Positions 1,865 through 24,477 of a stretch of DNA of 44,259 bases are shown piece by piece. A model generated the notes under the pieces. It had not been told where the DNA came from. It saw nothing but the letters and a program-made list of their open reading frames with translations, and ran no database searches. This stretch comes from a virus. The stretch spans positions 1 to 44,259 of the IMG/VR virus record IMGVR_UViG_3300035698_006796. One strand, 5' to 3'. Position numbers and translations under genes: made by a program. Numbering within the stretch: the first letter of the stretch is position 1; each line of letters starts with the position of its first letter.

Positions 1865-1925
1865 ATATTTACACTTCTTAAACAGTAAGTTTAAAATCTA
1901 AAAGTGTAAAGGTGGGTGAATAAAA

Positions 1926-2150
1926 ATGGAATATACAATCACGCTGACAATACGCAAACAGCTTGTAAAGGTATCTGGCACAATTGAAGAAATCGCAACA
2001 AAATTGAGTAAGTTTGCAGGGTTCACGCTTACACCAGAAGATATCATCAAGCAAGGTGCTTGGTCGGTAGTTTACAGAAAAGACTATCAAGCGTCTAGAC
2101 CACGCAAGACATCTGACGGAGAAGTAAAAGAGAGCATAAGTTTAGATTAG
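1926..2150 (+). CDS. Hypothetical small rightward early protein, 74 aa
   Basis: The ATG at 1926 follows AAGGTGGG about 10 bases upstream and a consensus-like promoter at 1835-1864. The product starts with two strand-like segments (MEYTITLTIRKQL and VKVSGTIEE), then a helix (EIATKLSKFA) and a Thr-Pro-Glu-Asp helix cap, ending in a charged tail. The layout could be a small nucleic acid or protein binding fold, but no family is recognised. It is followed by a hairpin with a short T run at 2168-2202, so it may be a single-gene transcript. Its position at the divergent switch makes a regulatory role attractive but unproven. Confidence 0.6.
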   Translation: MEYTITLTIRKQLVKVSGTIEEIATKLSKFAGFTLTPEDIIKQGAWSVVYRKDYQASRPRKTSDGEVKESISLD

Positions 2151-2167
2151 TAGTGTGTAAATACATT

Positions 2168-2202
2168 TAGCCACGCTTGATATATTAAGGGCGTGGCTAT
2201 TT
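2168..2202 (+). terminator. Candidate Rho-independent terminator
   Basis: TAGCCACGC (2168-2176) and GCGTGGCTA (2191-2199) form a perfect 9 bp stem with a 14-base loop, followed by TTTGC. It lies 18 bases after the stop of the gene at 1926-2150. The T tract is short, so termination may be partial. Confidence 0.55.
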
Positions 2203-2266
2203 GCATAATATGAAAATGACACAATTCAAAACAAATCAAATCAAAACAAAATTAAAGGGGTATAAA

Positions 2267-2470
2267 ATGGTTATATCTAAATCTATAAGCGTTGATATTG
2301 GTCGTGTTGTAATGTTTAATTATGCGTTGCATAATGATATTCTTGGCGTAGTTGTGAATGGTGACACAATACAATGTATTGATTTTGAAGAGCAACAATA
2401 TATAAATAAAGTACATCACAATAGTTTATTTCTTGATATTACAGAATGTAAACTTATAAGGGGTGTATAA
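2267..2470 (+). CDS. Hypothetical small protein, 67 aa
   Basis: I choose the ATG at 2267 because AAAGGGG ends 6 bases upstream; upstream in-frame starts lack a ribosome binding site. The protein is strand-rich with alternating hydrophobic residues (SVDIGRVVMF, ILGVVV, TIQCIDF), and could be a small beta-barrel. No family is recognised. Its TAA overlaps the next ATG at 2470 by one base, so the pair is probably co-translated. Both genes lie between two hairpins and upstream of the origin-like region. Confidence 0.6.
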   Translation: MVISKSISVDIGRVVMFNYALHNDILGVVVNGDTIQCIDFEEQQYINKVHHNSLFLDITECKLIRGV

Positions 2471-2679
2471 TGATTAACATAGAAAATATAACAGCATTAG
2501 ATCGTGAAGTGTTATTGGAGATTGTAGAAAATTATATATTGAATGGTTGTGATATTATTGACGATATTCTTGACGATAGTTTTAAAGATGTTAGGGGTAA
2601 AAATAAGCATATAGACCTATTAAAAAGAATAGTTATAACATATCATTTATATTTTAACTTAAAGGGGTTTAAAACATAG
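2470..2679 (+). CDS. Hypothetical small protein, 69 aa
   Basis: The ATG at 2470 overlaps the stop codon of the preceding gene, with AAGGGGTG a few bases upstream. The product is acidic in the first two thirds (DIIDDILDDSF) and basic and aromatic towards the C-terminus, and is probably helical. I do not recognise a family. A hairpin at 2730-2766 follows, so the transcript of this two-gene unit probably ends there, before the iteron region. Confidence 0.6.
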   Translation: MINIENITALDREVLLEIVENYILNGCDIIDDILDDSFKDVRGKNKHIDLLKRIVITYHLYFNLKGFKT

Positions 2680-2729
2680 CACTAGCGTTGGAATGTATTT
2701 GCATTATATCCCTAAAGTTTAATTCAAAT

Positions 2730-2770
2730 AATACGCTAACATTGGAAGTTTAAGTGTTGGCGTATTTCCT
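2730..2770 (+). terminator. Candidate terminator after the small rightward genes
   Basis: AATACGCTAACA (2730-2741) can pair with TGTTGGCGTATT (2755-2766), giving a 12 bp RNA stem with one G-U pair and a 13-base loop, followed by TCCTTTAT. It sits 50 bases past the stop at 2679. The tail is pyrimidine-rich rather than a clean T run. Confidence 0.45.
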
Positions 2771-2892
2771 TTATATATCTATATGTAGTGGGTGCAAGTC
2801 GTGGATCAGAATTTACTACATACCATATATAGCGTGTAGCATAGTTTTAATATTATAGGTATGTTTATTCAGATCGTAGCGTGTGCGTGGCT

Positions 2893-2932
2893 TGGAAGTC
2901 AATATGGAAGTCTATATGTAAATGTGGAAGTC
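2893..2932 (+). repeat. Three TGGAAGTC direct repeats
   Basis: TGGAAGTC occurs at 2893-2900, 2905-2912 and 2925-2932, the last two extended to TGGAAGTCTAT-TGTAAA. The third is followed by ACTTCC, making a short stem. A related element with TGGAAGTCTATTTGTAAACTTC lies near 1792-1814. These are iteron-like and may bind an initiator or regulator; they lie about 100 bases upstream of the GTTATGG array. Confidence 0.55.
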
Positions 2933-3025
2933 TATCTGTAAACTTCCAAAACCTTTATATTTATATATGCTACATAGTAAGTTCAGGCAAATTGCCTAAA
3001 TCCGTAAGTTCAGGGATTGAGATTT

Positions 3026-3286
3026 GTTATGGAATGTAAGGCGTGGCGTTATGGACTTAAGTCTATATATATCAATAGAGTTATGGCGTTATGGAAGTTA
3101 TGGCGTGGTGCTTGTTGGTGTGGGTGGTTGTGCTTAAATCTATATATATACATATATAATATATATATTTATAAAGTAGTATAGACAATAGCAACAACAT
3201 AGATTGCGTTCCATAATCTCCATAACTCCATAACGTCAATCATAGCGTGTGTTTTTAGCGTAAGTGTACCATAACGCGTCCATAAC
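3026..3286. other. Candidate replication origin: inverted iterons around an AT-rich core
   Basis: Five GTTATGG words occur on the left (3026, 3048, 3080, 3088 and 3097), and on the right there are four CCATAAC words plus one CCATAAT (3211, 3220, 3228, 3269 and 3280). The two sets are inverted relative to each other and lie almost symmetrically around an AT-only tract at about 3139-3174. Spacing within the sets is often 8-9 bases. Inverted iterons beside an easily melted core are typical of replication origins. This is the longest stretch without a gene (2680-3642), in keeping with that role. The initiator protein is not identified. Confidence 0.6.
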
Positions 3287-3487
3287 TATCTAATTGTTGC
3301 ACTCGCACCTATATATTATATATCCTTATATATAAAGCGACCACGCCACCCCCCCACGCACCCCCTTATAATATATATATAGTGGTATATATTCAGCTAT
3401 CATTTTTCCATTCTTATTAAATTCCTTTATTAAGTTTCTTTATAAAGTATGCCTAAAAAATCCACCCCTTTATAGTGTCTATTGTGC
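3287..3487. other. AT-rich gene-free spacer with a C-rich block
   Basis: I see no gene in these 200 bases. There is an AT-rich stretch with repeated TATATA words, a short C-rich block (about 3339-3366, with runs of seven and five C), and a second AT-rich stretch ending before the late promoter. The C-rich block resembles, in inverse orientation, the G-rich stretch at 3102-3129 on the other side of the AT core. Confidence 0.5.
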
Positions 3488-3516
3488 TTTACAAAATCAA
3501 CAATTTGTGATATTAT
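3488..3516 (+). promoter_or_regulatory. Candidate promoter of the virion operon
   Basis: TTTACA (3488-3493) and TATTAT (3511-3516), each one mismatch from the sigma70 consensus, are 17 bases apart. Transcription would begin near 3523, about 120 bases before terS. No other promoter of similar quality was seen between here and 3643, so it is the best candidate for the rightward virion unit. Confidence 0.55.
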
Positions 3517-3601
3517 ATATATACATACAAATACATTATAAAAATATGAATATTAAAAATTTACAATTTGAATTTAAGGTTTACACAACCTACGAATGTT
3601 C

Positions 3602-3626
3602 ACCAATGTTTATTTATATCATTGGT
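3602..3626 (+). promoter_or_regulatory. Hairpin immediately upstream of the terS ribosome binding site
   Basis: ACCAATG (3602-3608) and CATTGGT (3620-3626) form a perfect 7 bp stem with an 11-base AT-only loop, ending three bases before the GGAGG at 3630-3634. The lack of a T run after it argues against a terminator. It could protect the transcript 5' region or be a translational operator for terS. Confidence 0.4.
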
Positions 3627-3642
3627 AATGGAGGTATAATAT

Positions 3643-4170
3643 ATGGCAACAGCTAAAGGTAGGCATAAGACAGGTGCTGGTACGGAATATGCTGAAAGCA
3701 CAGAACGCCTATTCCCTAAACAACTTAATAGTAGACACCGCATTTTAATGCGTTTACTCATTACTGGTATGCAACTTAAGGATGCGGCTAAGGAAGTAGA
3801 TTATAATTTGCAGCGTGCACAAACCATAGTTAGTAGTCCATTGTTCAAACTTGAGAAGAGTAAAATGGAGAAAGAGATAAGGGATAGATATACAACCAAT
3901 GAAAGCAAACGCGGGTTGCCAGAGAACATACGTAGTAAATTGCAGGATGAAGCTTTGTTCGCACTTGACGAGATTGTACGCCTACGTGATAAGGGTACAA
4001 GTGAAGGTATTAGACAACGCAGTGCATTTGATATATTGGATAGAGCTGGTTATAAGGCGCCGGATAAGTTTGAAGGTATAGTTGCAGTTGAGGCTACGGA
4101 AGGATTAGTTAATGCTTTACAACGTTCATTAAAGGAGCAAAAGCCTGAAAATGGAAATGTTGAACCCTGA
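3643..4170 (+). CDS. terS: Terminase small subunit
   Basis: This is the likely DNA-recognition subunit of the packaging motor. The protein (175 aa) has a basic N-terminus, a helix-turn-helix-like segment at about 39-66 (LLITGMQLKDAAKEV), a long charged helical middle and a C-terminal segment (DILDRAGYKAPDKFE) of the type seen in small terminases. It starts at an ATG 8 bases after GGAGG. Its 3' end overlaps terL by 20 bases, the usual small-large terminase arrangement, and this position is much of the evidence. TerS proteins form rings that bind pac or cos DNA and pass it to TerL. The call rests on motif and synteny, not on a database match. Confidence 0.8.
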   Translation: MATAKGRHKTGAGTEYAESTERLFPKQLNSRHRILMRLLITGMQLKDAAKEVDYNLQRAQTIVSSPLFKLEKSKMEKEIRDRYTTNESKRGLPENIRSKLQDEALFALDEIVRLRDKGTSEGIRQRSAFDILDRAGYKAPDKFEGIVAVEATEGLVNALQRSLKEQKPENGNVEP

Positions 4171-5656
4171 ACAATATGAACACATAAGGGATAATATGCG
4201 AAGTAGTTTCGCGTTTTTCTGTCAATCAATTATGCCACCAGAGTGGTTTGATGACGTGTTCCATTTGGAGCTATGCAACTTTATGCAGTACAGTAAAAAT
4301 AGGAAACTAATAATACTTCCGCGAACACACCTAAAAACAACAATAGCCGCAACACTGTACCCTTTATGGCGTGCAACTGTGGATACAAATAAACGAATAC
4401 TAGAGGTAAGTAATACTAGTACTAACGCTGGGAAAACTGTTCGCGCTATTCGTAGTTATGTTGAGAATAACAAGTTATACAGTGCGTTTTTTCCAGATTG
4501 TGTTCCACAATTTTCCAAGGTGCGTTGGTGTGATGAGTGTGCTTGTTTACGGAGACCAGAAGATTTTCCGGAAGGTACCTTTGAAAGTGCAGGTGTCGGC
4601 GCTAACATTATACGTCGTCACTTTAATATAATAATTGAGGATGATACGGTTGCCCCACAGAAAGATGACTTGACGGGGGAGGAATGTATGCCTTCACGTG
4701 ATGATATAGAGAAGGCTGTTGGGTTCCATAGGTTGATACCACCACTACTTATAAACGAAGAGGATGAAATATTAGTTATAGGTACAAGGTGGGCTGATTA
4801 TGACCATATCAAGTGGGTTAAGGAAAATGAAGACTATGACATATTTGATAGAGCAGCATATGATGAAGCAGGTGTGCCACGCTATAAAAGGTTTAGTGTG
4901 GGTAGGTTAGCAGATATAAGAAAGAGTATGGGTTCACACCTATTTAATGCTTTGTACTTAAATGACCCATTGAGTCAGGATAGTATGATATTCAAACCTA
5001 GTTGGCTGCATTACTATACTGAGGATGAGTTGCCAGCAGAAGGGCAAGGAGTAGTTACCGTTGATCCTGCAGACCCACCTACTGGCAAGAAATCACAGGA
5101 CTATAGCGCCATTGTTAGTTGTAAGCATACTAAGAAGGGTGTTTATGTTCGTAGATATATAAGGGAAAGGTTAACTGACAAGCAAGTAATAGATAAGGCT
5201 ATGGAGGTTGCTAAGAAAGATGGTGCATACAAAATAAGGATTGAGGTTGATAGGTATGCACATTTACAGTATGGAATTAAGGAAGCTATGAATAGGAAGA
5301 ATGAGTGGTATAGTATAGATGCTGTTAAAACTAGAGGTAGGAATAAAGAAGCACGTATTAAACAAAGACTTGCACCTATGTTTGAGAATGGCGTCATACA
5401 CCTTAAGCAAGGAATGAGAGAGTTGGAACAGGAGTTGTTCGCATTCCCTAATAGTGCTCACGATGATTTGATTGATGCGCTAGCTTGGCAGATAGAAGGC
5501 ATATCACCAACTGATATGACACCACCACCAAAGAAGTCAAGTGGTAGAAAGTTGCCGACGTTTGGAGAAATGTTGGGGACTTTAGAAAAAAGAGGTAAAG
5601 GGCAGTACCCATTTGAAGTACAACTAGGTGGGCAGGTCAGTAATTTCAATAATTGA
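4151..5656 (+). CDS. terL: Terminase large subunit
   Basis: This is the packaging ATPase and nuclease. The 501-residue protein has a Walker A-like motif with PRTHLKTT at 57-64 (a deviant, Arg/His-containing P-loop as in many phage terminases), a Walker B with IIEDD at 161-165, and a C-terminal RNase H-fold nuclease marked by VDPADPP (D305) and the HDDLIDALAW segment (D438, D439). E365 may be a further metal ligand. A CDEC pair near 127-130 is unusual. Length is slightly short but normal. The ATG at 4151 follows GGAG in the terS end. The last codons (Asn-Phe-Asn-Asn-stop) lie inside one of the dispersed palindromes at 5640-5662, an odd overlap. Confidence 0.93.
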   Translation: MEMLNPEQYEHIRDNMRSSFAFFCQSIMPPEWFDDVFHLELCNFMQYSKNRKLIILPRTHLKTTIAATLYPLWRATVDTNKRILEVSNTSTNAGKTVRAIRSYVENNKLYSAFFPDCVPQFSKVRWCDECACLRRPEDFPEGTFESAGVGANIIRRHFNIIIEDDTVAPQKDDLTGEECMPSRDDIEKAVGFHRLIPPLLINEEDEILVIGTRWADYDHIKWVKENEDYDIFDRAAYDEAGVPRYKRFSVGRLADIRKSMGSHLFNALYLNDPLSQDSMIFKPSWLHYYTEDELPAEGQGVVTVDPADPPTGKKSQDYSAIVSCKHTKKGVYVRRYIRERLTDKQVIDKAMEVAKKDGAYKIRIEVDRYAHLQYGIKEAMNRKNEWYSIDAVKTRGRNKEARIKQRLAPMFENGVIHLKQGMRELEQELFAFPNSAHDDLIDALAWQIEGISPTDMTPPPKKSSGRKLPTFGEMLGTLEKRGKGQYPFEVQLGGQVSNFNN

Positions 5657-5662
5657 ACTTAC
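5640..5662. repeat. Dispersed palindrome, copy 1 (end of terL)
   Basis: Arms GTAATTTCAA and TTGAACTTAC flank TAA; one mismatch from a perfect 10 bp inverted repeat. It covers the terL stop codon and ends six bases before the AGGAGG of the next gene. Five further copies lie at 15445, 25350, 33032, 38317 and 42656. Confidence 0.85.
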
Positions 5663-5681
5663 ACTTTAGGAGGTGTATATT

Positions 5682-6068
5682 ATGGGATTTAATAGTTCTA
5701 CAGTAACAGTACAAGTTGCTGGTGGAGAAACAGTAACAGGACTTAATCGTTTGTATGGTTGTGGCATAAAGGCAGGAGCAGCTACATCCAGTGTAACAGT
5801 ACGTGAGACATCAATAACTGGTAATGTGCTTGATGGTGTAAGTGCACTTGCTACTGCATTTAATACTAGTAGAAATGATATGCCAGTATCAGTTAGTGGC
5901 AAGACGTTATACATAGAGGCAGTAGGTAATGCAACTAACACTGTACTTTATGTAGATGATGCAACAGGTGCTATAGTAACACACCCATATGACAAGTTAG
6001 TAACTAGGGTTACAATATTAAATTATAATAACACTAAACTGTTAGGTACAGTAACCGTAACAAGCTAG
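5682..6068 (+). CDS. Virion-like protein with C-terminal repeat tag, 128 aa
   Basis: The start is the ATG at 5682, 8 bases after AGGAGG. The protein is Thr, Val, Gly and Ser-rich with many beta-strand-like segments and no Trp, as in small phage decoration or fibre proteins. Residues 104 to the end (LVTRVTIL and then LLGTVTVTS) match the 14-15 residue repeat of the giant protein at 16750-20907, so this looks like a domain carrying two repeat copies as a tail. Its place between terL and the portal gene is unusual, since terL is normally followed directly by the portal. It has no recognised family; a decoration role is inference. Confidence 0.7.
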   Translation: MGFNSSTVTVQVAGGETVTGLNRLYGCGIKAGAATSSVTVRETSITGNVLDGVSALATAFNTSRNDMPVSVSGKTLYIEAVGNATNTVLYVDDATGAIVTHPYDKLVTRVTILNYNNTKLLGTVTVTS

Positions 6069-6078
6069 GAGGCGAGTG

Positions 6079-6183
6079 ATGGCTAAAGGAACACCAAAGC
6101 GGGACGGGAGCGGTGGAGGAACAAGAGGTAATAAAGGTAGAGGTGGATGCTCTACTACTAAGAAAACGGGACAAGGTAAATAG
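6079..6183 (+). CDS. Small basic Gly-rich protein, 34 aa
   Basis: A very short gene with CTAGGAGGCGAGTG before its ATG at 6079; its TAG at 6181-6183 abuts the portal ATG. The product is almost entirely Gly, Lys, Arg, Ser and Thr (for example GTPKRDGSGGG and GNKGRGGC). Small proteins of this composition are often found just before the portal gene in tailed phages, from my recollection. The function is unknown; it may bind DNA or be a packaging accessory. The good ribosome binding site and exact fit between neighbours support it being translated. Confidence 0.7.
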   Translation: MAKGTPKRDGSGGGTRGNKGRGGCSTTKKTGQGK

Positions 6184-7947
6184 ATGCCAAGCAAGAAGGC
6201 TGACACATTAGAGAACTGGCAACAACTTATAGAATCTGGTAACATCTATAAGAAGAAGTATGGTAATAGTGACCAATGGTCTACTTACCGTAATTACTAT
6301 AGGGGAGACTTTGGTAACTACAAGGGTGATACCAGTGGTACACTACCATACAACTTAACTTATGCTATGGCTAGGGCGTTGATACCGAGTATATACTTCC
6401 GTAACCCATACATTAACATAAGCCCCAGATTTAGAATGGGTGAAGCTTCCTTGCATAGAGACATACACGCTAAAATAGTTGAGTCTATAGACAACTGGCT
6501 TATACAAGAGATGAACATAAAGAAGGAAATGAAGACTGCACTGCTTGACTGTTACTTCACCAACAAAGGTTTGTGGAAAGTTGGGTATGACAGTCAGTAT
6601 GGTTTTGCACCAGAGTTAACTGAAGGCGGTATACAACTTGGAGATACAACATTCAGTTCTTTTGATAAGACAGGTAAAGCACTTGAGTATAATATAAATG
6701 TAAAACCTGGTATGCCTTGGGTGTTGCGTGTCAACCCTGATGATATAGTTGTACCATTCGGCGTACGCACATTAGATGATTGTCCTTGGATCGCACATCG
6801 TGTTATACGTCCATTGGAAGATGTGAAGGCAGATCCCAAGTATAGCAATACTAAAGACTTAACTGGTACACATATAAACTCAATATATAAAGACACACAA
6901 AAGAGTGACTTCTATATGGAGCTGCAAAAGATGTGTGATTGGGTTGAGATATATGAAGTTAGAGATAGGAAGAAGAAGGAAGTGTTTGCGTTTGTGCCAG
7001 GACACCCTAAATACTTAAGGACGCCAGAGGATGATGTACTACAAATAGAAGGTTTGCCATATGTTGATATAGCATACAATGAAGATGTGGAGTACTACTG
7101 GGGTCCAAGTGATTGTAAGATTATTGAACCACAACAGTTGGAAGTAAATGAAGCAAGAACGCAAGCTATGAAACATAGAAGGATCGCACTTGTTAAGTTC
7201 CTTGTAGATAGCAACTTAATAGATCCTGTAGAAGTGGATAAGATGTTGAGTGAGAACGTTGGTCCAGTAGTTAGAGTTAAGGGGAGACCAGCTGACAGTG
7301 TTACAACATTGCAACCACACATCCCACCTGATTTAGTTCAGTGGGTAGAACAAATCAGGATGGATGTGAGAGAGACGTTAGGTTTTGGTCGTCATCAAAT
7401 GGGTGACTTAAGTACTGGTCGTAGGACTGCTACTGAAACATCTGCTGTACAGATGGCTCACGAGATACGTATAGATGAACGTAGGGATATGGTTGGTGAC
7501 GCACTTGGTGGTATTGTACGTAAGGTTAACCAAGTTATATTTAGCAGATGGGACGAGCAACACATAACACAAGTTGTAGGTTATGATGGTGCAAAGTATT
7601 GGGTTAAGTATAATAAGGAAGCTATTGCAGGTGAGTATAATATCAAGGTTGATGTTGAGAGTTTAAATCCATCAACTAAAGCAGTAAAGAAAAGAGATTT
7701 AATTGAGCTTATAGGCGCTTTAGCAAAACACCCACAAGCAAACATAAATTACCTATTAAAACAATTAGTTAGACAGTATGATTGGATAGATGCTATGGCA
7801 GTATTGCCTGAAGCTAAGGAGACAGCGAATGGACAACCTATGGGAGTTGACCAGTATGCACAGCAACAACAAGGGCTACTTAATAACCCATCTCAATTAG
7901 GTGCACGTGTGCGTCAAACACAACAGAATGCAGGGAGACGGATGTGA
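6184..7947 (+). CDS. Portal protein
   Basis: This 587-residue protein is the likely dodecameric portal through which DNA is packaged and ejected. It follows the terminase genes and precedes the scaffold and capsid genes. Features match portals of podovirus-like phages: an N-terminal helical region (YYRGDFGNYKG, about 38-48), a central strand-rich wing, a segment around EVNEARTQAMKHRR (near 318-331) typical of the stem/clip helices, and a Gln-rich C-terminus (QYAQQQQG). The start is the ATG at 6184; no strong ribosome binding site precedes it, but it directly abuts the stop of the 34-residue gene, so coupling is likely. The length is in the usual range. Confidence 0.85.
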   Translation: MPSKKADTLENWQQLIESGNIYKKKYGNSDQWSTYRNYYRGDFGNYKGDTSGTLPYNLTYAMARALIPSIYFRNPYINISPRFRMGEASLHRDIHAKIVESIDNWLIQEMNIKKEMKTALLDCYFTNKGLWKVGYDSQYGFAPELTEGGIQLGDTTFSSFDKTGKALEYNINVKPGMPWVLRVNPDDIVVPFGVRTLDDCPWIAHRVIRPLEDVKADPKYSNTKDLTGTHINSIYKDTQKSDFYMELQKMCDWVEIYEVRDRKKKEVFAFVPGHPKYLRTPEDDVLQIEGLPYVDIAYNEDVEYYWGPSDCKIIEPQQLEVNEARTQAMKHRRIALVKFLVDSNLIDPVEVDKMLSENVGPVVRVKGRPADSVTTLQPHIPPDLVQWVEQIRMDVRETLGFGRHQMGDLSTGRRTATETSAVQMAHEIRIDERRDMVGDALGGIVRKVNQVIFSRWDEQHITQVVGYDGAKYWVKYNKEAIAGEYNIKVDVESLNPSTKAVKKRDLIELIGALAKHPQANINYLLKQLVRQYDWIDAMAVLPEAKETANGQPMGVDQYAQQQQGLLNNPSQLGARVRQTQQNAGRRM

Positions 7948-8216
7948 ACAAACTAATCGCACAAAAGAAAGAACGCGCATCTATGCATTGGAAGGGTGGT
8001 AAGCAAGTTGCTGCTATATGTAACAAGCACGGGTTCTATCACGGTGAGCATTGTCCAATGTGCGTAGAAGAAATTAAAGGTGATGGACCACAAATGATGT
8101 TCTTCACACCACATACTTACGAGGACTTAGGTTTAAGTCCTGTACATATAACAAGTAAGAGACAGTTGAAAGAAATATGTAAACGGAGAAATTTAAAAGC
8201 TGCACGGTTGCAGTAA
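7944..8216 (+). CDS. Small zinc-finger-like protein after the portal, 90 aa
   Basis: The gene starts at a GTG at 7944 that overlaps the portal TGA by 3 bases (GTGA), with GGGAGA upstream. The protein is basic and has CNKHGFYHGEHCPMC at about 27-41, a compact Cys/His cluster that could bind one zinc ion. The C-terminal part (SKRQLKEICKRRN) is basic. Small zinc-binding proteins often sit between portal and scaffold genes in podovirus-like genomes; their function is not established. Coupled translation with the portal suggests a virion or assembly role. Confidence 0.7.
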   Translation: MNKLIAQKKERASMHWKGGKQVAAICNKHGFYHGEHCPMCVEEIKGDGPQMMFFTPHTYEDLGLSPVHITSKRQLKEICKRRNLKAARLQ

Positions 8217-12397: not shown

Positions 12398-13072
12398 ATG
12401 TCAAGTGGAAGGACAGTATTTGTGAAACCAAATGGGAGGAAGAGAGCCAAAGTAAGTGTACCAGAGGGACTGAAGGTGTGCAAGGAAATGCCACCGATAG
12501 AAAAGTATAATATTGCTTATCAGTTTCCTGAGTATGCTCACACTAGTTGCGGTGCTATTTATGCTCCATTACTAGACAGGCGCCTTAAGTTTAAAAGTGT
12601 GCTTGATGTAGGTTGTGGTGCTGGATATGCGGTAACATACTTCCTAGTTGAAGGCAAGTCAGTTAAAGGCATTGAACCTTGCGATGAGTTATTAAAGAAC
12701 ATATTAAAACCGTTGCACTTTAATCGTGTAGTGCAGAAAGGTATGATACAAGGATTACCTTTCCCTAATGATACATTTGATCTTGTTATGAGTACGGATG
12801 TATTAGAACATATTAAGGAAGAGGATATTGACAAGTCAATTAAGGAACTTATTAGGGTTAGTAAAAGGTATGTGTTTGCATCAATTGCTTTAACTAAAGC
12901 TATCTTCCTTGATTTGAATTTGCACGAGACAGTGAAGCCAGCGAAATGGTGGAGAGAAAAGTTTGAAAAGTATAAAGTAAAACGGTTGGAGTTTAGGAAT
13001 AAGTCTATTAACAGCTCTGGCGATAAGTTGCATAGAGCAGGCGGATTGGAGGTATTGTATGAAAAGTACTAG
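12398..13072 (+). CDS. SAM-dependent methyltransferase, class I
   Basis: This 224-residue protein has the Rossmann methyltransferase motif I, VLDVGCGAGYAV, at 68-79, an acidic residue at the end of strand 2 (GIEPCDE) and a post-motif segment with FDLVMSTDVLEHI near 128-140, all typical of Methyltransf_11-type enzymes. These methylate sugars, lipids or small molecules and also proteins. It begins at the ATG at 12398 after GAGGAG. It overlaps the next gene by 14 bases and is the first of three overlapping genes that look like a surface-glycan cassette embedded in the virion operon; sugar O-methylation is a plausible role but not shown. Confidence 0.8.
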   Translation: MSSGRTVFVKPNGRKRAKVSVPEGLKVCKEMPPIEKYNIAYQFPEYAHTSCGAIYAPLLDRRLKFKSVLDVGCGAGYAVTYFLVEGKSVKGIEPCDELLKNILKPLHFNRVVQKGMIQGLPFPNDTFDLVMSTDVLEHIKEEDIDKSIKELIRVSKRYVFASIALTKAIFLDLNLHETVKPAKWWREKFEKYKVKRLEFRNKSINSSGDKLHRAGGLEVLYEKY

Positions 13073-14069
13073 GATTGAAGCAGAAGTTTTTATGCCAAAG
13101 GATGCACTAACTCACATTAGGCAGAAACATTCGGAGAGTTGTAAAGCAGACTTACCAGATATGCACTTAAGTAATTTTTTGTTTAACGTTAAGACTATAC
13201 ACAATTATCCTGGTATACTTGGGTTTGAGAAGATATTTAAAAAGACGCCTGCAGTAATTGTGGGAGCTGGTCCAAGTTTAGATAGTAAGACTGTTGAGCT
13301 GCTTAAGAAGTATAGGGATAACATTATAATTATATCTGTTGATGCGGCGCTACCTGTACTAGTTGGTAAGTATGATTTATACCCACACTTTGTATGTATG
13401 GTAGACCCTACGGAGAAACAGAAGGATAACTTTAAAGGTATAGACACTACTAAGTTCTATTCTATAATACCTACTGTTGTACACCCGTCTATATTTAGAA
13501 CTATAGACCCACAACATCTAGCAGTGTACAGCATCAAGGATAGTGGCAGTACGTTGCTTGAATTGGCACCTTATCATACTGGTAAAATTGGTGCATTACC
13601 GGCTGGAGTACTTACAAGTGGTACCTGTTTTGCATTTGCGGCTATTATGGGATGTAATCCTCTTATGTTTGTGGGTCATAGTCTAAGCTGGCCGGATACA
13701 GAACACGTGTATGCTGATGGCATAGATCAGAAGAAGATTGATTTCCAGAAGGGTGCTAAGTTTAGAGGTGGTTGTTTATTGTTCCCAGACATCGATGGTA
13801 AACTTGTACTAACACACGAAACATTCGTAGTGTTCTGGGCGTGGGTAAATGATATGGCACACCGTATGAAACAAAAAGTTTTAAATTGCAGTGGTGCTGG
13901 TATACTTAAGAGTAGAGATATTAAGGCAGTACCATTTAAAGACGCACTTAAAAAGTATTGTAGTAAGGAGCTGGTAGGTGTGGATGAAACTATTAAGAAA
14001 GCATATAAATATCAGGTATCAGATGGCTATATTGAAAAGCTATTAACACCAGACTTTAAGCGTATATGA
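13059..14069 (+). CDS. DUF115 / Maf-like protein
   Basis: The 336-residue protein carries AVIVGAGPSLD at 65-75 and, further on, an MVDPTEKQ segment near 118, the hallmarks of the DUF115 (6-hydroxymethylpterin pyrophosphokinase MptE-like) family. Bacterial members next to glycan genes are Maf-type motility accessory factors that transfer nonulosonic acids to flagellin or are linked to cell-surface sugars; archaeal members are pterin enzymes. Since it lies between a methyltransferase and a pyruvyl transferase gene, a surface-sugar role is more likely here. Overlaps on both sides (14 bases upstream, 4 downstream) suggest co-translation. Which sugar is involved cannot be seen. Confidence 0.8.
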   Translation: MKSTRIEAEVFMPKDALTHIRQKHSESCKADLPDMHLSNFLFNVKTIHNYPGILGFEKIFKKTPAVIVGAGPSLDSKTVELLKKYRDNIIIISVDAALPVLVGKYDLYPHFVCMVDPTEKQKDNFKGIDTTKFYSIIPTVVHPSIFRTIDPQHLAVYSIKDSGSTLLELAPYHTGKIGALPAGVLTSGTCFAFAAIMGCNPLMFVGHSLSWPDTEHVYADGIDQKKIDFQKGAKFRGGCLLFPDIDGKLVLTHETFVVFWAWVNDMAHRMKQKVLNCSGAGILKSRDIKAVPFKDALKKYCSKELVGVDETIKKAYKYQVSDGYIEKLLTPDFKRI

Positions 14070-14956: not shown

Positions 14957-15427
14957 ATGGCAGCTCCGTCAATTGCTTGGTATAGATGTACAAACAGTGC
15001 ACCTACATACTCTGCTGTTGCTAGTTTGAATTTTGGTACTGTTACTGCTGGTGCCTGGTCTGTAGAGCAAGTTATTAGACCAAAGGTAACCAACAATAGT
15101 ATTCAAAGTGCAAAATGGTGGATGTATGATGTAATAGGTGTGCGAAGTGGTGCTTCGGCATCAGTAGGAACAGCAGCTGGTTGGCTCCATTATCTTACAG
15201 CGACAGGTACTTATGTAACAGTAAGTTCCACATCGCCAAAGGGTAGTGCGGGCATTACTGGTGCTTGGACCGAAATGCCGCAAACAACCGGTTCAGGTTA
15301 TGCGTACAGTGCAGTTAGTGATGCAGCTTATGGTGATTTTGTATATCTCACTATTAAGGTTCCATCTGCAGCTGGGGATGGTGCAACAACTGCTTGGGGC
15401 TATCAACTTAAGTATAGTTATACTTGA
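14957..15427 (+). CDS. Putative virion protein, 156 aa
   Basis: It starts at an ATG at 14957 with a near-perfect AGGAGGTGAT ribosome binding site about 7 bases upstream, predicting high expression. The protein is Ala, Gly, Ser, Thr and Trp/Tyr-rich (SIAWYRCTNSAPTY at the start, ending WGYQLKYSYT) with many strand-like segments and few charged residues. This is typical for fibre or decoration proteins. No family is recognised. It follows the glycan cassette and is followed by a dispersed palindrome at 15445-15471. Confidence 0.65.
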   Translation: MAAPSIAWYRCTNSAPTYSAVASLNFGTVTAGAWSVEQVIRPKVTNNSIQSAKWWMYDVIGVRSGASASVGTAAGWLHYLTATGTYVTVSSTSPKGSAGITGAWTEMPQTTGSGYAYSAVSDAAYGDFVYLTIKVPSAAGDGATTAWGYQLKYSYT

Positions 15428-15444: not shown

Positions 15445-15471
15445 CCGTAAGTTCAATTTTTGAATTTACGG
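15445..15471. repeat. Dispersed palindrome, copy 2
   Basis: Arms CCGTAAGTTCAA and TTGAATTTACGG flank TTT; one mismatch in 12 bp. It lies between a virion gene ending at 15427 and the ribosome binding site of the gene at 15496. Same element as at 5640, 25350, 33032, 38317 and 42656. Confidence 0.9.
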
Positions 15472-15495
15472 AATAAAACGGAGGATTATGAACTT

Positions 15496-15837
15496 ATGTT
15501 TATTGCACACTTAAGAGACGGCAGAACACTCAAGGAAGCGGATGGGGTGGACTGGAAGGAATTGCCTGTTAAGGACATAACATCTCTCCAACTTTACCGC
15601 GAAGGTAAATACTATACAGTGAGTGCTGATGGGAAGAATGTTGATTTGATACAACTTAAAAGAGAAATTACTGGTATGGGACCTATGCCTCAAGGTTTGT
15701 GTGAAAGAGTTATTGGTTTTGTTATTAAGGAAAAGGGTGATATTAAATATGCTGTCAAGATGGAAGTAGATGAGAGGAATGGTAATGTTAAATTAACTTT
15801 AGAAGAGAAGGTTGGTAAACAATGGAAAAAACTGTAG
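15496..15837 (+). CDS. Hypothetical protein, 113 aa
   Basis: I choose the ATG at 15496, with GGAGG at 15480-15484, rather than a TTG at 15460 that lies inside the palindrome. The product is soluble and charged: a first half with LRDGRTLKEADGVDW and strand-like ITSLQLYREGKYYTV, and a second half rich in Lys, Glu and Val (YAVKMEVDERNG, VKLTLEEKV) that may form an antiparallel sheet. I do not recognise a family. It begins a block of three genes (15496-16743) next to the palindrome that precede the giant repeat protein. Confidence 0.65.
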   Translation: MFIAHLRDGRTLKEADGVDWKELPVKDITSLQLYREGKYYTVSADGKNVDLIQLKREITGMGPMPQGLCERVIGFVIKEKGDIKYAVKMEVDERNGNVKLTLEEKVGKQWKKL

Positions 15838-16749: not shown

Positions 16750-19700
16750 ATGGCTGTACTATATAATACTACTGGTTGTGATTATAGTAGTGCTGATACA
16801 ACATTTAATGGCACGCCTACTGCTAGTAGTATTAGTGTAGTTTGTCGTATATCAGTATTAGTACCTAGTAGTAGTAATCTTATATGTAGAGCAACTAGTT
16901 TAGTTAAAGGTAGTGATAGCTTAGTATGTAGTACTACAGTTGTTTATACAAACGCTAGCGATGATTTAGTTAGTAGAGTTACTACGTTAAAATTAACGAC
17001 TGATGCACTTGTTTGTCGTCTTATCAGTTTAGTTGTAAATAGTGAATCACTCATTTGTCGTCTTACTAGTTTGAATGTAGGGAGTGATGCATTAGTTTGC
17101 AGTACTAACGTAACTTATACAACTGCGACTGACAACTTAGTATCGCGAGTTACAGCACTACAACTAAAAGTAGATAATTTAGTATCTCGTACAACTGTGT
17201 TGGATGTAAGTAGTGATGCGTTGGTTTGTAGAACTAATGTTATATACAGTGCTGGCGTTGATAACTTAGTTTGCCATACAACTGTACTAGTGACAGCTAC
17301 TAGTGATTTAGTTTGTACTGTAGGTGTAATGAGTACTAATACCACAAATGTGGTAGCTAGAGTTACTGTGCTTGATGTGGCAGTAATGAACTTAGTTGCA
17401 CGTACTACAGTATACTTTACACCACTAGTTGAGAATCTAGTTAGTAGAGTAACTATACTGCAACCAGCTATTGATAATTTAATTGCACGTACAACAGTAC
17501 TTGATGTAGGCACTGCTTCACTAGTTAATAGGTTAATTGTTTTACAGTCTGTAGGTAAAGCGCTAGTAAGTAGGGTAACTGCATTACTATATGGAAGTGA
17601 TAACTTAGTTAGTAGAATAACACCATACTATAGAAAATTAGCAACTGACTACCAAAGGAAACAATGGTATGATGGTATTTATTACTGGAGAAGTTATTAT
17701 GATGGACCTAATCAGAGAGTAAGATTTGATTATTCTACTGCTGCTAGATTAGCTATAGACCCTGATGATTGGACAGAGAATATAACAGCTAGAATAACTG
17801 ATGCAGGTGTCAGCTCTGACTACGCCATTCGTGGTGATGGTAGTAATACTTATATAGTCTACAAAGTAGGAGATGATATATATGGTAGAAGAGATACAAA
17901 CTATCCAGCTATTAACTTTGGATGGGCTGCTTCAACAACAGTATTTGATGGTTCTGCAGATGGTGGAGTTTATACTAATTGTAATGTATGTTTTGATGGG
18001 AGAGATAAAAGTTTAAATGCAAGTGCTTCTATTCAAATGACAGATGATAGTTTATATGATTTGCATGTAAAGAGGTCTGGTATCACAGGTAGATTACCTA
18101 GTACGAGCGATACAAGTAAAGCTCTTATTGTAGATTCTGCTGCACATATAGGAGCGACAATAAGAAGAGGTATTGATAGCACTAAGAATTCTTTAATATG
18201 TGTAGTCCGTAATGGGGTAGCTTTAAAATCTTATTATAGAGATGGCAAAAATAATGTCACTGACTGGGAAGCTGAGCAAAGTATCGATAACACTAAAGCA
18301 GGACAAGGATATAGCTATGATATAGAGCATGAAGCTATTTCAGGTATAACACATTTGATTTATATAAATGCCTCTGGTAATGCATCTTCGAGAATAAGAC
18401 CTGCAGGCAGTGCTCAAGCTTGGAGTGCTGAACTAATAATCGGCACTGAGACAACTGACTTATATCCATCTATAGGACAACACGGTCAAGCAGATATGCA
18501 CTTTGTTTGGTTATGTGGTACACATAATGTTTTACATCAAAGAATATATACTCCTCTAACAGATACTTGGGAACCTACAGTTGATCCTTATGAGAATCCT
18601 ACAGCTTTGGATAGTGGTACAGAACATCCCAATGCTCAATTCTTACATTTAACAGATGAGTCGCCTAACGTAGGATTACTATTCCAAGAGTTAGAAGCTA
18701 TTTCAGCTGTGCAATGTTTTGATAGTATCCAACCATTAGCACCTTCAGCTTTAGAAGTAGAGGGAGCTACTAATCCTGGTAATGTTTCTGATACTACACC
18801 AGAGTTTACTGCCGTATTTGAAGCCAATGGAGATACTGATACAGCTACTCAATATCAGATAGAAGTAAAAACTGATGGCGGTACATATATTACTTCTAAA
18901 GATGTATTAAATTTGGACGCAACTATAGGTATTAGTACAAGTGTAGCAGGATTACAAGGAGCAACTGCAGTCATAACTTGTTATAGTTTAGGTGGTACTG
19001 TTAGTTCAGGTACTGCTGGGTATTTAGGTCAGTTGGACAATAATGTATATACTGATGGAGATGTATTAACTGGTGCAGTGCCTATATATTTAAGGTTTAG
19101 TGAGACAGCAACTTGTGATGCTGGAGACGAATTAGCTATTAAGTTGGCAGACACAACTACACTAACAATATGTTTACCTGCAATTGCAGATGATGCAGCA
19201 GTTGATTTATTTATAACTAGTGATGGTAGTACTTGGTATGATGGTGCTTATTCTGAACTTGCTCGCTCTTGTTTAGCAACTGCTTGGTTAAGTGGTATGC
19301 AAGACTTTGTTACTCCGGTAGTAGATCAAGCAAGGTGTGAGTCTATCTCTTGTGGTAACGCACTTGCAAGAGATGGTGAGGTATATGACTGGAAAATAAG
19401 GTTTAGGGATTCTAGTTGGTATTGGAGTCCTTGGACTGATGGCGCTGCTACATTTACAATGGTTACCGATGCAGTTACCAGTCTTATATCTAGAGTTACT
19501 ACATTAAAAGTTAGTAGTAGAGCACTTATTAGTAGGATAAATGTATATTACATAACTGCTAGTAAAGATTTGGTTTGTAGATTAAATGTATATTATGTAA
19601 CAGCTATTAGGAACTTAGTAGCAAATGTGACTACATTAAGGGAAAGTAGTAAAGCACTTGTTAATAGAGTCACAACATTACAAGTTAATTCTGACAGTTT

Positions 19701-20907
19701 AGTATCACGAGTTAATACTTTGCGTGAATTAAGTGATGTACTTATATCACGTATTACTATATTAAAGGTGAGTAGCGATAACTTAGTATCAAGGTTAAGT
19801 GTGTATTTCACACCTTTGAGTGAAGATCTGGTTTGTAGAGTTATAGCGTTAAGGGTATTAAGTAAAGCATTAGTGAGTAGGGTAACTACTAGAGTGCTTG
19901 GTAATGATGCACTTGTGAGTAGGGTTACAACACTTCTAACTAATAGTGACTCACTAGTAAATAGAGTTAGAGTGCTAGAGAAAGCAACGCGCTCACTTGT
20001 TAGTAGAATAACTGTATACTTTACACCAGCACTTAGGAATTTGGTGTCAAGAGTAACTACGCTAAAGGTAAATAGCGACGCACTTATAAGCAGAGTTACA
20101 ACATTACTAACTAGTGATGATAGTCTGGTATCGCGTGTTACTACATTAAGGGAGTTAAGTAAAGCACTTGTATCACGCACTACTGTACTGTTAGAAAATA
20201 GTAGGAACTTGGTTGCTAGATTAAGTGTTTACTACACACCATTAAGTGAGAACTTAGTTGCTAGAGTTACAACGTTAAGGGAATTAAGTGCTTCACTCGT
20301 AAGTAGGTTGACAGTTAGATCTATTAGTGTGCATAGTCTTATAGCACGCACAACAGTACTACGTGAGTCAACTGCTGATGCTGTTACTTACTCTAGTAGT
20401 GTGGTTACTTATAGTAATACCATAAAGAATTACAATGGTATAGTTGGACCTCTCACTTGTAAAGTAACAGTTTACTTCCCTATATCTTCTAATAATCTTA
20501 TTTGTAGGGTTATTAGTAGAGTTGTAACTGGTGCTAACTTGGTTGGGCGTACAACGGTACGTGCACAAAGTAGTGTTAACTTAGTTGCAAGGACTACTGT
20601 ACGTTGCTGTTGTTGTGGTATAATAATTAGTAGAGTAACAGTTGTATACACAACTAAGACAGATAACTTGGTATGTAGAAGTACGGTATTAGTACCAACA
20701 TATGACAACTTGGTGTGTAGAATGATAGCACTGAGGAAAGAGGCTGACGCACTTGTAAGTAGAGTAAGTATATGGCGGTGGGATGTAGTTACACCTAAAA
20801 CAACTACTTGGAATGATGTAGGTGATAATAGTAGTGTTTGGACTGACGTTGGTGATAACAGTACAACTTGGACTGATGTAGACGTACCCAGTTACATCAC
20901 ACCATAA
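16750..20907 (+). CDS. Giant repeat-rich virion protein, 1385 aa
   Basis: This largely beta-strand-like protein has three parts. Residues about 28-297 hold 19 repeats of 14-15 residues with consensus NLVSRVTxL (position 4 Ser, Cys, Ala or Asn). Residues about 298-900 are a different, Trp/Tyr and Asp-rich domain with propeller-like and FN3-like elements (YYWRSYYDGP, ITHLIYINASG, TTPEFTAVFEANG). Residues about 911-1345 hold about 29 more repeats, including a Cys-Cys-Cys-Cys run. The end has three WTDVGDNS-like units. No visible ribosome binding site precedes the ATG, so coupling to the upstream gene 6 bases away is likely. The protein is probably a large tail appendage or fibre. The same repeat tags three other proteins (see findings). 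Confidence 0.75.
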   Translation: MAVLYNTTGCDYSSADTTFNGTPTASSISVVCRISVLVPSSSNLICRATSLVKGSDSLVCSTTVVYTNASDDLVSRVTTLKLTTDALVCRLISLVVNSESLICRLTSLNVGSDALVCSTNVTYTTATDNLVSRVTALQLKVDNLVSRTTVLDVSSDALVCRTNVIYSAGVDNLVCHTTVLVTATSDLVCTVGVMSTNTTNVVARVTVLDVAVMNLVARTTVYFTPLVENLVSRVTILQPAIDNLIARTTVLDVGTASLVNRLIVLQSVGKALVSRVTALLYGSDNLVSRITPYYRKLATDYQRKQWYDGIYYWRSYYDGPNQRVRFDYSTAARLAIDPDDWTENITARITDAGVSSDYAIRGDGSNTYIVYKVGDDIYGRRDTNYPAINFGWAASTTVFDGSADGGVYTNCNVCFDGRDKSLNASASIQMTDDSLYDLHVKRSGITGRLPSTSDTSKALIVDSAAHIGATIRRGIDSTKNSLICVVRNGVALKSYYRDGKNNVTDWEAEQSIDNTKAGQGYSYDIEHEAISGITHLIYINASGNASSRIRPAGSAQAWSAELIIGTETTDLYPSIGQHGQADMHFVWLCGTHNVLHQRIYTPLTDTWEPTVDPYENPTALDSGTEHPNAQFLHLTDESPNVGLLFQELEAISAVQCFDSIQPLAPSALEVEGATNPGNVSDTTPEFTAVFEANGDTDTATQYQIEVKTDGGTYITSKDVLNLDATIGISTSVAGLQGATAVITCYSLGGTVSSGTAGYLGQLDNNVYTDGDVLTGAVPIYLRFSETATCDAGDELAIKLADTTTLTICLPAIADDAAVDLFITSDGSTWYDGAYSELARSCLATAWLSGMQDFVTPVVDQARCESISCGNALARDGEVYDWKIRFRDSSWYWSPWTDGAATFTMVTDAVTSLISRVTTLKVSSRALISRINVYYITASKDLVCRLNVYYVTAIRNLVANVTTLRESSKALVNRVTTLQVNSDSLVSRVNTLRELSDVLISRITILKVSSDNLVSRLSVYFTPLSEDLVCRVIALRVLSKALVSRVTTRVLGNDALVSRVTTLLTNSDSLVNRVRVLEKATRSLVSRITVYFTPALRNLVSRVTTLKVNSDALISRVTTLLTSDDSLVSRVTTLRELSKALVSRTTVLLENSRNLVARLSVYYTPLSENLVARVTTLRELSASLVSRLTVRSISVHSLIARTTVLRESTADAVTYSSSVVTYSNTIKNYNGIVGPLTCKVTVYFPISSNNLICRVISRVVTGANLVGRTTVRAQSSVNLVARTTVRCCCCGIIISRVTVVYTTKTDNLVCRSTVLVPTYDNLVCRMIALRKEADALVSRVSIWRWDVVTPKTTTWNDVGDNSSVWTDVGDNSTTWTDVDVPSYITP
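16831..17638 (+). repeat. N-terminal array of 19 in-frame 42-45 bp coding repeats
   Basis: The array encodes 19 units of 14 or 15 residues of the form N/D/S/A-L-V/I-S/C/A/N-R-V-T-x-L followed by a variable 5-6 residue linker. Codons differ strongly between units while the residues are kept, so the repeats are old or selected at the protein level and are not a CRISPR or simple tandem DNA repeat. Units with Tyr at position 9 (VTYTTATD, VIYSAGVD, VYFTPLVE) are one residue longer. Confidence 0.85.
19480..20790 (+). repeat. C-terminal array of about 29 in-frame coding repeats
   Basis: About 29 units of the same consensus as in the N-terminal array, interrupted by one degenerate unit near 20386-20450 (residues TYSSSVVTYSN). 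Several units share longer stretches with the N-terminal array (VYFTP and VYYTP units at 17407, 19801, 20017 and 20227), so units may have been copied between arrays. Linkers such as KVSSD, RELSK and LTNSD recur. Confidence 0.85.
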
Positions 20908-22498: not shown

Positions 22499-22909
22499 AT
22501 GGCAAGTACAAAGGTACCTAAAACTAGACGTCAATATTTTAAAGTGTCAGGCTTTAACGTAGGATTAGTGGAAGACTCACCAACTACTATGTTACCTAAT
22601 AACGCTACACCGTTGTGTAGTGAGGTGCACTTTGAAGATCAGGAGATACGTAAGAATATAGGTACCACATATTTTGCTGGTACAGGCACAACAGCATTAG
22701 ATGGAAGTGTTATGCTACTTTACCATTATAAGAAAACTGATGGTACTGATACACTTGTATGCTTTACGACAACACACGTATATAAGTACAGCACTACAAA
22801 AAAAGAGTTTCAACTTATTGATGAGACACTTAAGAAATTGTTATGCAAAATAACAGTAACTCAAGGTTACTTAACAAACAATGTAGTATGCAGGGTAACA
22901 GTAGGTTAG
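22499..22909 (+). CDS. Propeller-like tail protein, N-terminal half with repeat tag, 136 aa
   Basis: The product starts like the N-terminus of a common podovirus-type tail protein (FKVSGFNVGLVEDSP, EVHFEDQEIRKN, LLYHYKKTDGTD, CFTTTHVYKYSTTKKEFQLI), in which a propeller-type chain normally continues for several hundred residues. Here, at about residue 111, the chain changes to LLCKITVTQGYLTNNVVCRV, two copies of the 14-residue repeat family, and ends at TAG. The next gene (22919-24157) begins where the normal protein would continue. I therefore read it as one ancestral gene split by insertion of the repeat module. The ATG at 22499 has no clear ribosome binding site and lies 3 bases after the previous stop. 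Confidence 0.65.
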   Translation: MASTKVPKTRRQYFKVSGFNVGLVEDSPTTMLPNNATPLCSEVHFEDQEIRKNIGTTYFAGTGTTALDGSVMLLYHYKKTDGTDTLVCFTTTHVYKYSTTKKEFQLIDETLKKLLCKITVTQGYLTNNVVCRVTVG

Positions 22910-22918
22910 GAGGTATGA

Positions 22919-24157
22919 ATGGCATTTTTTAATGGTGATTTAGATGATGTATTTTGTGCTACCGTTATAAATGACTCACTTATATTTACTAATGGTGTTG
23001 ATGGTATATTCAAATGGGATATGAGTGGTAGTGTGGCACGTCTTGCAAATGCTGATAGTTTTAGTGCTAAGTGGATGCTTAAGTATGGTGAAAGGTTATG
23101 TCTATTTAATACTACGGAAAGTGGTACACGTAGACCACAATATGTACGGTGGCCTGTAGCTGGCGACCCTGAAGATTGGACAGGTACTGGTAGTGGATAT
23201 GTAGATTTAGTAACTGTTATGGGAAGTGATCCAATAATAAGAGCTGAGAAGTTAGGTAACTATGTTATTATATATGGAAGTGATACTATAGTGCTTATGG
23301 AATATAAGAATGATGTTAATGAACCATTTATATTTAGCACCCGTCTAACTGGTTTGGGATTGGCTGCGAGAAGAGGATTAGTAAACCTTGGAGACAGTCA
23401 TATATTTCAAAGTGTCAATGGTGTACATATATATAATGGCGGCAGAAGTGTGGAGGATGTGGATGCAAATATAAATTCTGCTATGGTTGATTTAGTAAAC
23501 CCAGAACAAATTGGTCGTTCATTTATGAGCTACAAGAATAATAAGGAAGTAAGATTAAACTTCCCTAAAGCTAGTGCTACATCACCGAACACATACTACT
23601 TGTATGATGCTAAAGGTAAGACTTGGAGTAAAGGTGCACGTAGTTATACTGGTACTGGAGAGTACTTGAGAAAGACAAGTCTAGTCATAAATGATATGAC
23701 TGATATTATAAATAGTTATACTAACTTAAGGTTTAATGACCGGACAACACTTGCACTACAGCCTATAACTTTATATGGCACTAGTGATGGTGTAGTGGTA
23801 TATGATGATAGTAGTACGTATAGTGCTGCAGGCGGTGTGGCAATTGATGGAGAGTTTGAGACTAAGGACTTTATACGTGGAGAAAGATATACAGGAGAAG
23901 AGACTAGTTGGATGGAACTTAACTTTGAAGCTAAGGGTAATAATATTAAAGTAAGTTATAGTTTGGATATGGGTAAGACTTGGAGTGATTACACTGAGTA
24001 TACGTTAGACAGTAATTGGGATACATATAGGTATGATACTGAGGCGTGGTCACCACAAATACGTTATCGCTTTCGTAATAACACAGCTGGTGAAAGTTTC
24101 CGTTTACGCACTTTTGAATTAGGTTACTTAGGCGCTAGTGATAGGAGTGTTGAGTAG
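22919..24157 (+). CDS. Propeller-like tail protein, C-terminal part, 412 aa
   Basis: The ATG follows TAGGAGGTATGA, and the product starts with strand-rich sequence (FFNGDLDDVFCATVIND, LIFTNGVDGIFKWD) followed by more repeats with GYVDLV, NYVIIYGSDTIVL and GLVNLGDSHIFQSV typical of the propeller-type tail/adaptor proteins of short-tailed phages. The C-terminal part is a strand-rich domain ending in FRLRTFELGYLGAS. It lacks the usual N-terminal portion, which is supplied by the gene at 22499-22909. Both parts may associate into one structure. Function as a tail hub or nozzle component is inferred. Confidence 0.7.
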   Translation: MAFFNGDLDDVFCATVINDSLIFTNGVDGIFKWDMSGSVARLANADSFSAKWMLKYGERLCLFNTTESGTRRPQYVRWPVAGDPEDWTGTGSGYVDLVTVMGSDPIIRAEKLGNYVIIYGSDTIVLMEYKNDVNEPFIFSTRLTGLGLAARRGLVNLGDSHIFQSVNGVHIYNGGRSVEDVDANINSAMVDLVNPEQIGRSFMSYKNNKEVRLNFPKASATSPNTYYLYDAKGKTWSKGARSYTGTGEYLRKTSLVINDMTDIINSYTNLRFNDRTTLALQPITLYGTSDGVVVYDDSSTYSAAGGVAIDGEFETKDFIRGERYTGEETSWMELNFEAKGNNIKVSYSLDMGKTWSDYTEYTLDSNWDTYRYDTEAWSPQIRYRFRNNTAGESFRLRTFELGYLGASDRSVE

Positions 24158-24477
24158 TGAAAGTTAACTTACCTATTGATGTAATATTGCCAAACGATTA
24201 CAAGACTAATGAAGACCCTAAAGTGTTGGAGAAGTGGCTAGCAGAACTTGTGAGAGCCTTGGAGGATTTGTTTAAGAAGGCGTATTATGATATAGCTTTT
24301 GGTAGAAGTAAGTTTAGTGTGTTCACAAGTTTACCAACCACAAGTGATTTACAGGAAGGTCAACTAGCATTATATGGTAGTAATTTATATACTTCTATTA
24401 ACAGTACTATTTATAAATTGGGTTTGACTGAAGTTAATGTTGGCAACTTAATATGCAGAGTAACGGTAACAAGTTAA
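24157..24477 (+). CDS. Hypothetical virion protein with C-terminal repeat tag, 106 aa
   Basis: It starts at a GTG at 24157 that overlaps the previous TAG by one base. The first about 90 residues are typical of short phage tail-associated proteins (VLEKWLAELVRALEDLFKKAYYDI, then TSLPTTSDLQEGQLALYG). The last 10 residues, NLICRVTVTS, match the repeat consensus and end with the same VTVTS-stop as the protein at 5682-6068. The shared nucleotide context at the end (GTAAC-GTAACAAG, then stop, then GGAGG) is noted under findings. It may be needed for tail or fibre assembly. Confidence 0.6.
   Translation: MKVNLPIDVILPNDYKTNEDPKVLEKWLAELVRALEDLFKKAYYDIAFGRSKFSVFTSLPTTSDLQEGQLALYGSNLYTSINSTIYKLGLTEVNVGNLICRVTVTS

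Follow-up and report, generated by a model that had tools for sequence, protein, structure and literature searches.

A short repeat shared by array proteins and C-terminal tags in two phages: a candidate docking module of the virion

Introduction

Immunoglobulin (Ig)-like domains, which are folded modules of about 90 residues, occur on the C-termini of different phage virion proteins and are patchily distributed among phages. Here, we describe a much shorter module in an IMG/VR virus record of 44,259 bases (IMGVR_UViG_3300035698_006796, G000; this whole stretch is called the window below), in which a unit of 14-15 residues forms long arrays in a 1385-residue protein and recurs as a C-terminal tag on three other products, one of them the N-terminal half of a split tail nozzle. 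The likeness to the Ig-like domains lies in a single, patchily distributed module placed at the C-terminal ends of several virion proteins that are unrelated to one another; the difference is that the module is here a tag of 10-60 residues, which also builds long arrays on a separate protein.

The second system that bears comparison is curli, in which the fibre subunit CsgA and the surface-bound nucleator CsgB have the same repeat, and the fibre is started by homotypic stacking (PMC10192328). As in that pair, one short repeat is present many times in one protein and again on candidate anchors. However, the unit described here has the consensus L-V-[SCAN]-R-V-T with a conserved Arg over 14-15 residues, whereas curlin has N/Q motifs; curli are a secreted cell-surface amyloid, whereas the setting here is a phage virion, with the units placed as C-terminal tags on unrelated proteins. 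A Pfam search with the arrays, extended to E 10, also gave no curlin family.

Results

The Repeat Unit and Its Arrays

Sequence, profile, and regular-expression analysis of the array protein detected 46 units by regular expression and 47 by HMMER, following the form [LV][VI][SCAN]R[VLI]T[VT][LY] and spaced by 14 residues in 33 cases and by 15 in nine. An earlier note on this DNA had counted about 48 units in two arrays around a non-repeat domain; the number is slightly lowered, the two arrays stand, and a further irregular run was found behind them (table 1). At the DNA level, a degenerate pattern for four successive units gave eight matches against none expected. Unit positions 1 to 4 and 6 were among the most conserved, with core position 3 (position 4 when the preceding N is counted) occupied by Ser, Cys, Ala, or Asn, just as the note had described. 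It had also remarked that codons vary while residues are conserved, and the numbers bear this out: pairwise codon identity between units at L1, V2, R4, and T6 was 0.24-0.44, where codon usage predicts 0.26-0.40. Because codon identity has fallen to the level expected from genome usage, divergence is saturated, and the units are old and kept by selection on the protein.

Neither Pfam, PHROGs, nor PDB returned a match that would name the unit (best E of a PDB sequence search with the array, 0.08), and scans of close relatives with array-protein peptides from outside the conserved core produced no matches. A degenerate pattern with a 14-residue period retrieved 102 matches from bacterial and archaeal genomes, all of which were low-complexity DNA tandem repeats and were discarded. 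Within array 2, a higher-order repeat of 71 residues (14+14+14+14+15) was also seen, the 15-residue unit of which carries VYFTP or VYYTP.

C-Terminal Tags in the Window

Units of the same kind close three other products, encoded by the genes starting at 5673, 22499, and 24157 (genes are named hereafter by their first nucleotide). With a position-specific scoring matrix, these ends scored 13.3, 20.0, and 22.6 bits, respectively, and took ranks 1-3 among the 39 window proteins, the next scoring 6.3. When the last 30 residues of each protein were shuffled, 52, 2, and 1 of 20,000 shuffles reached the respective scores, and none of 817 open reading frame (ORF) ends from other phage contigs reached 13.3 bits. 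The three tags proposed from the sequence thus match the repeat profile above chance. A 14-column hidden Markov model detected the tags of 22499 and 24157 (E 1e-4 to 4e-5), with the 5673 tag weak (E 0.35).

The possibility of an element at the RNA or DNA level was also considered for the tags, and Rfam gave no match there. The last 18 nucleotides of five tags were more alike (0.78) than in synonymous-codon shuffles (0.67; 17 of 5000 reached the observed value), a likeness that may reflect a common origin of the tags.

A Second Phage Tags the Same Three Genes

The window bears a 127-nucleotide direct repeat that is identical at both ends (1-127 = 44133-44259), so the genome appears complete; genes for the terminase, the portal, and the major head protein mark it as that of a tailed phage. 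Its closest relative is G002 (IMGVR_UViG_3300029892_000009), with a backbone identity of 67%. Another relative, G007 (IMGVR_UViG_3300033148_003439; 43,664 bases; backbone identity 57%), was found via a tail-adaptor search, and a partial record, G008, is 99% identical to it. The neighbour set of the window consists mostly of partial contigs. In cultured phage records, no relative of the array proteins or of the 5673, 14957, or 13059 products was found; weak matches in Klebsiella and Enterobacter (E 2-10) were set aside.

G007 tags the homologues of the same three genes, with two units on that of 5673, four on the nozzle N-terminal piece, and one on that of 24157. The respective ends are '..KNLVCRINPMVRGVTDNLVCRITVTS*', '..KNLVCRVSVIILDSKNLVCRITRVPNTPATKNLVSRVTVKVYDVRNLHCGITVTS*', and '..GYKSLVCRLTVTS*', and it is the first of these that led us to accept the weak 5673 tag of the window. 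No other G007 protein carries the unit. In G007, the gene slot of the window's array protein holds two such proteins, one with 7 units and the other with about 10-12, and five of the seven G007 tag units have K before N/S, as the G007 array does. The non-repeat domains of the array proteins differ, with a weak Ig-like match in the window and a weak DUF4082-like match in G007, and the C-termini of these proteins have 'IWxWDxV..xxTxW' in common in both phages. In G002, a small separate protein (L002:6207-6428) contains the W-rich motif NTTNWVEVG..TEEWTNEG, similar to the C-terminal end of the array protein in the window. Upstream of the G007 arrays, three fibre-like or small proteins (L134:13245-17903) have starts that resemble signal peptides when judged by eye (e.g., MKKFVITILSLFCLISTAFA), which is unusual for virion proteins.

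A protein-by-contig table placed the array protein and the 5673, 12398, 13059, 14957, and 15460 products in G007, and all but the array in the partial G008; none of the six was present in the remaining relatives. Relatives that cover these loci, G002 included, lack both array and tag, and their nozzle is unsplit. The proposal that one peptide module serves several virion-unit proteins is supported by this pattern, in which tags and arrays co-occur in two phages and are jointly absent from relatives. The simplest reading would be that the module moves or is lost as a whole. In the G002 homologue of 24157, the protein stops where the tag of the window protein starts, so that the 15-residue extension EVNVGNLICRVTVTS (nucleotides 24430-24477) is absent; together with the G002 nozzle, this marks the tags as additions.

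The Tail Nozzle Is Encoded in Two Pieces

The C-terminal piece of the nozzle matches the tail-nozzle family phrog_3287 (2e-33), and its homologue in G002 (L002) matches solved nozzle proteins (9nwi_Y, 6e-8; nozzle gp16 8zkk, 1e-4). Pseudomonas phages UFV-P2 and NV1 gave weak matches to the nozzle, which suggests that the window phage is a podovirus. Instead of the single polypeptide of the nozzle family, the window has two ORFs in the same frame, the first of which ends in the tag; hence, at least one tag sits on a part of the virion. G007 is broken at the same place, with the two ORFs in different frames, so that readthrough cannot join them. Readthrough was ruled out as well by the stops and Shine-Dalgarno sequence of the window (table 1), and these features along with the break in another frame in G007 likewise exclude a sequencing error. 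The nozzle is unsplit in all relatives with a readable nozzle gene (G002, where it is a single 593-residue protein, G009, G003, and G006). The corresponding site in relatives holds a short loop (L124) or else an additional domain of some 75 residues; in G002, this domain shows weak similarity to the N-terminal part of a pyocin side fibre (E 0.02), which hints at a fibre attachment site where the nozzle is split. A nozzle made as two chains at a site of domain insertion is surprising in itself.

In trees built with FastTree, the window pairs in the backbone with the tag-less G002 and not with G007; in the C-terminal part of the nozzle it pairs with G007 (support 0.94).

Table 1. Coordinates of the module and its components in the window
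Feature	Nucleotides	Strand	Residues	Remarks
Small tagged protein between terminase and portal	5673..6068	+		Start GTG 5673 or ATG 5682
Two-unit tag of 5673 protein	5994-6068			Ends '..KLVTRVTILNYNNTKLLGTVTVTS*'
S-adenosylmethionine (SAM) methyltransferase	12398..13072	+		Array-bearing phages only
MptE-like / Maf (PseD-like) glycosyltransferase	13059..14069	+		Array-bearing phages only
156-residue protein	14957..15427	+		72% identical in G007; array-bearing phages only
125-residue protein	15460..15837	+		63% identical in G007; array-bearing phages only
Array protein	16750..20907	+	1385	Sequence, profile, and regular-expression analysis
Array 1	16819-17628		24-293	
Middle non-repeat domain			294-905	Weak Ig-like Rha78A match at 666-735
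Array 2	19465-20361		906-1204	
Array 3, irregular run			1244-1342	
W-rich C-terminus of array protein				'IWRWDVVTPKTTTWNDV...'
Nozzle N-terminal piece (phrog_3287)	22499..22909	+	136	Ends in two-unit tag
Two-unit tag of nozzle N-terminal piece	22835-22909			Ends '..KLLCKITVTQGYLTNNVVCRVTVG*'
Nozzle break	22907..22921	+		In-frame TAG overlapping Shine-Dalgarno (TTAGGAGGT), second in-frame stop TGA, then ATG
Nozzle C-terminal piece	22919..24157	+	412	One ORF with N-terminal piece in tag-less relatives
Small protein adjoining nozzle	24157..24477	+		Ends '..EVNVGNLICRVTVTS*'

Predicted Fold of the Repeat

Structure prediction of the arrays, which the earlier note had advised, gave two results that disagree. 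AlphaFold modelled array 1 as an all-beta solenoid with two units per coil (predicted local distance difference test, pLDDT, 62; predicted template modelling score 0.62), and the best VIA-align match of this low-confidence model was curli CsgA (Z 20.4; root-mean-square deviation 9.1). Part of array 2 was predicted as a helix with a pLDDT of 92. Since arrays 1 and 2 are the same repeat, one of the two predictions is wrong.

The helical model raises the possibility that arrays and tags are coiled coils, with Leu at positions 1 and 8, in which the arrays would form fibre stalks and the tags would be short coil segments joining the stalk. Apart from the array 2 prediction, this is suggested by weak similarities to bZIP-like coils in Pfam and to the reovirus sigma-1 coil in a phmmer search (E 0.08). 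We nevertheless regard such coils as very improbable, given that array 1, with the same repeat, was modelled as beta, and that the arrays are rich in V+I+T (32-36%) and poor in E+K (3-6%). Moreover, the heptad periodicity of trimeric coiled-coil fibres is missing from arrays 1 and 2, where the windowed hydrophobic moment at 3.5 residues was 0.23-0.27 compared with 0.21-0.27 in shuffled sequences. The conserved columns are consecutive (1-4, 6), the conserved small residue (S/C/A/N) would occupy an outward heptad position, prolines occur, and 15-residue units are frequent. From the composition, the lack of heptad periodicity, the consecutive conserved positions, and the outward small residue, we favour a beta fold for the unit, without considering the matter settled. 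Among beta folds, the adenovirus-type triple beta-spiral shaft also has repeats of about 15 residues, with a conserved turn Gly/Pro. Here, Gly and Pro are few in some 20 units per array (seven Gly and four Pro in array 1; one and three in array 2), so that most units have neither.

A 14-residue period was also found in an otherwise different record, L015 (IMGVR_UViG_3300009515_000003; 166-8207), where 'TKxVSLDAxLQxxx' is repeated in 62 and 11 units on two adjacent proteins with BNR-like domains. The consensus is another one, no structural gene is common to L015 and the window, and no tags were found on the other L015 proteins. These arrays were therefore dropped as homologues and kept as a parallel, possibly convergent, case.

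Genes That Accompany the Arrays

Four genes upstream of the array share its restricted distribution (table 1). The 13059 product matches PF01973 above the cut-off (3e-29) and the NCBIfam model FlagModPseD below the full-length cut-off (3e-17), so that the module encodes a Maf-like enzyme akin by sequence to the Maf/PseD flagellin glycosyltransferases. The top NCBIfam match of the 12398 product, among many, was a pseudaminic acid biosynthesis-associated methylase, below the cut-off. The gene adjoining the Maf-like gene encodes a polysaccharide pyruvyl transferase (PF04230; 14066-14953) and is present in the window only.

These enzymes bring up another role for the unit, namely that of an O-glycosylation acceptor, whereby the Maf-like protein and the methyltransferase would act on Ser/Thr of arrays and tags and coat the tail and small virion proteins with sugar. 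Their genes lie just upstream of the array and occur only in array-bearing phages, 11 of the 12 tag units have T or S at position 6, and Ser/Thr make up 22-26% of the arrays. In mycobacteriophages, virion glycosylation has been reported and tied to phage-encoded glycosyltransferases (PMC11256854); what belongs to the virion proteins there is for the present units a proposal. We hold it to be unlikely, because the most conserved positions are L1, V2, the small residue at 3, and R4, with no fixed Ser/Thr among them, while array positions 3 and 6 are often other than Ser/Thr. An acceptor role does not itself explain the strict period of 14-15 residues, and the phage enzymes may act on the host surface instead. 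If the unit were nevertheless such an acceptor, it would constitute a defined tag for a phage-encoded Maf-like enzyme.

The 14957 and 15460 products, for which no recognisable domain was found, are the best conserved of the module genes, and their identities between the window and G007 exceed that of the backbone. Together with their occurrence with arrays only, this raises the alternative that a third protein, for example one of these two, docks on the unit, covering the array with many copies of itself and linking it to the tags, following the logic of cohesin-dockerin pairs or SunTag. A unit core that is identical in two phages with otherwise different array proteins agrees with this arrangement, and the 14957 protein is a possible partner of the unit. 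The absence of a recognisable domain in either candidate and the regular tandem spacing, more typical of a self-structured repeat, make third-party docking decidedly unlikely in our view.

Further sequence elements were observed in both phages. Dispersed palindromes of about 27-34 nucleotides (CCGTAAATTCAATTNTTGAACTTACGGA) lie at 5638, 15439, 25342, 33024, 38311, and 42650 of the window and are mostly intergenic and operator-like; a site 5' of the 5673 homologue of G007 (TAAGTTCAATTTTTGAACTTA) is similar to them.

Discussion

We favour the explanation that the repeat is an exchangeable docking module, to which we assign a probability of roughly 0.5: repeat strands on virion anchors would associate with the arrays of variable adhesion proteins through homotypic stacking. 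According to this proposal, one to four units of a 14-residue strand-forming peptide would be fused to the C-termini of the anchors, namely the N-terminal nozzle piece and the two small proteins whose genes follow the nozzle and lie between terminase and portal, respectively. Runs of seven to more than 40 units would serve as stalks in adhesion proteins, the remaining domains of which change between phages. Tag and array would pair via the common repeat, by stacking of strands or coils, so that every tagged anchor could accept every array protein. The nozzle tag takes the place of the loop or insertion domain of the relatives and closes with a stop codon and a fresh ribosome-binding site, so that the nozzle is made as two chains. 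We infer the beta fold, the binding of tags to arrays, and a role in host attachment from the comparisons above.

Several observations weigh against this explanation. The beta model of array 1 has a pLDDT of 62 and its PDB Foldseek search gave E no better than 0.08, and part of array 2 was predicted with high confidence as a single 152-residue helix. The tags of the window fit the array model of the other phage as well as their own. The system was found in two phage lineages only, and the unit could be recognised by the module enzymes and the two small, highly conserved proteins.

A more far-reaching version, which we put forward tentatively and consider somewhat doubtful, is transferable virion tagging. 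The 14-residue repeat would then have two uses, as the dock at the C-termini of three structural proteins and as the polymeric stalk of interchangeable adhesins. It would enter genes as a cassette of unit, stop, and ribosome-binding site, which splits the nozzle but leaves it functional.

Should the docking proposal be true, the unit would also provide a small self-pairing tag for protein engineering. For the phages themselves, it would account for the retention in the virion of repeat-rich proteins that have no recognisable attachment domain and, if the tags dock the arrays, a plug-and-socket peptide would let phages swap their adhesion proteins while the nozzle remains unchanged.

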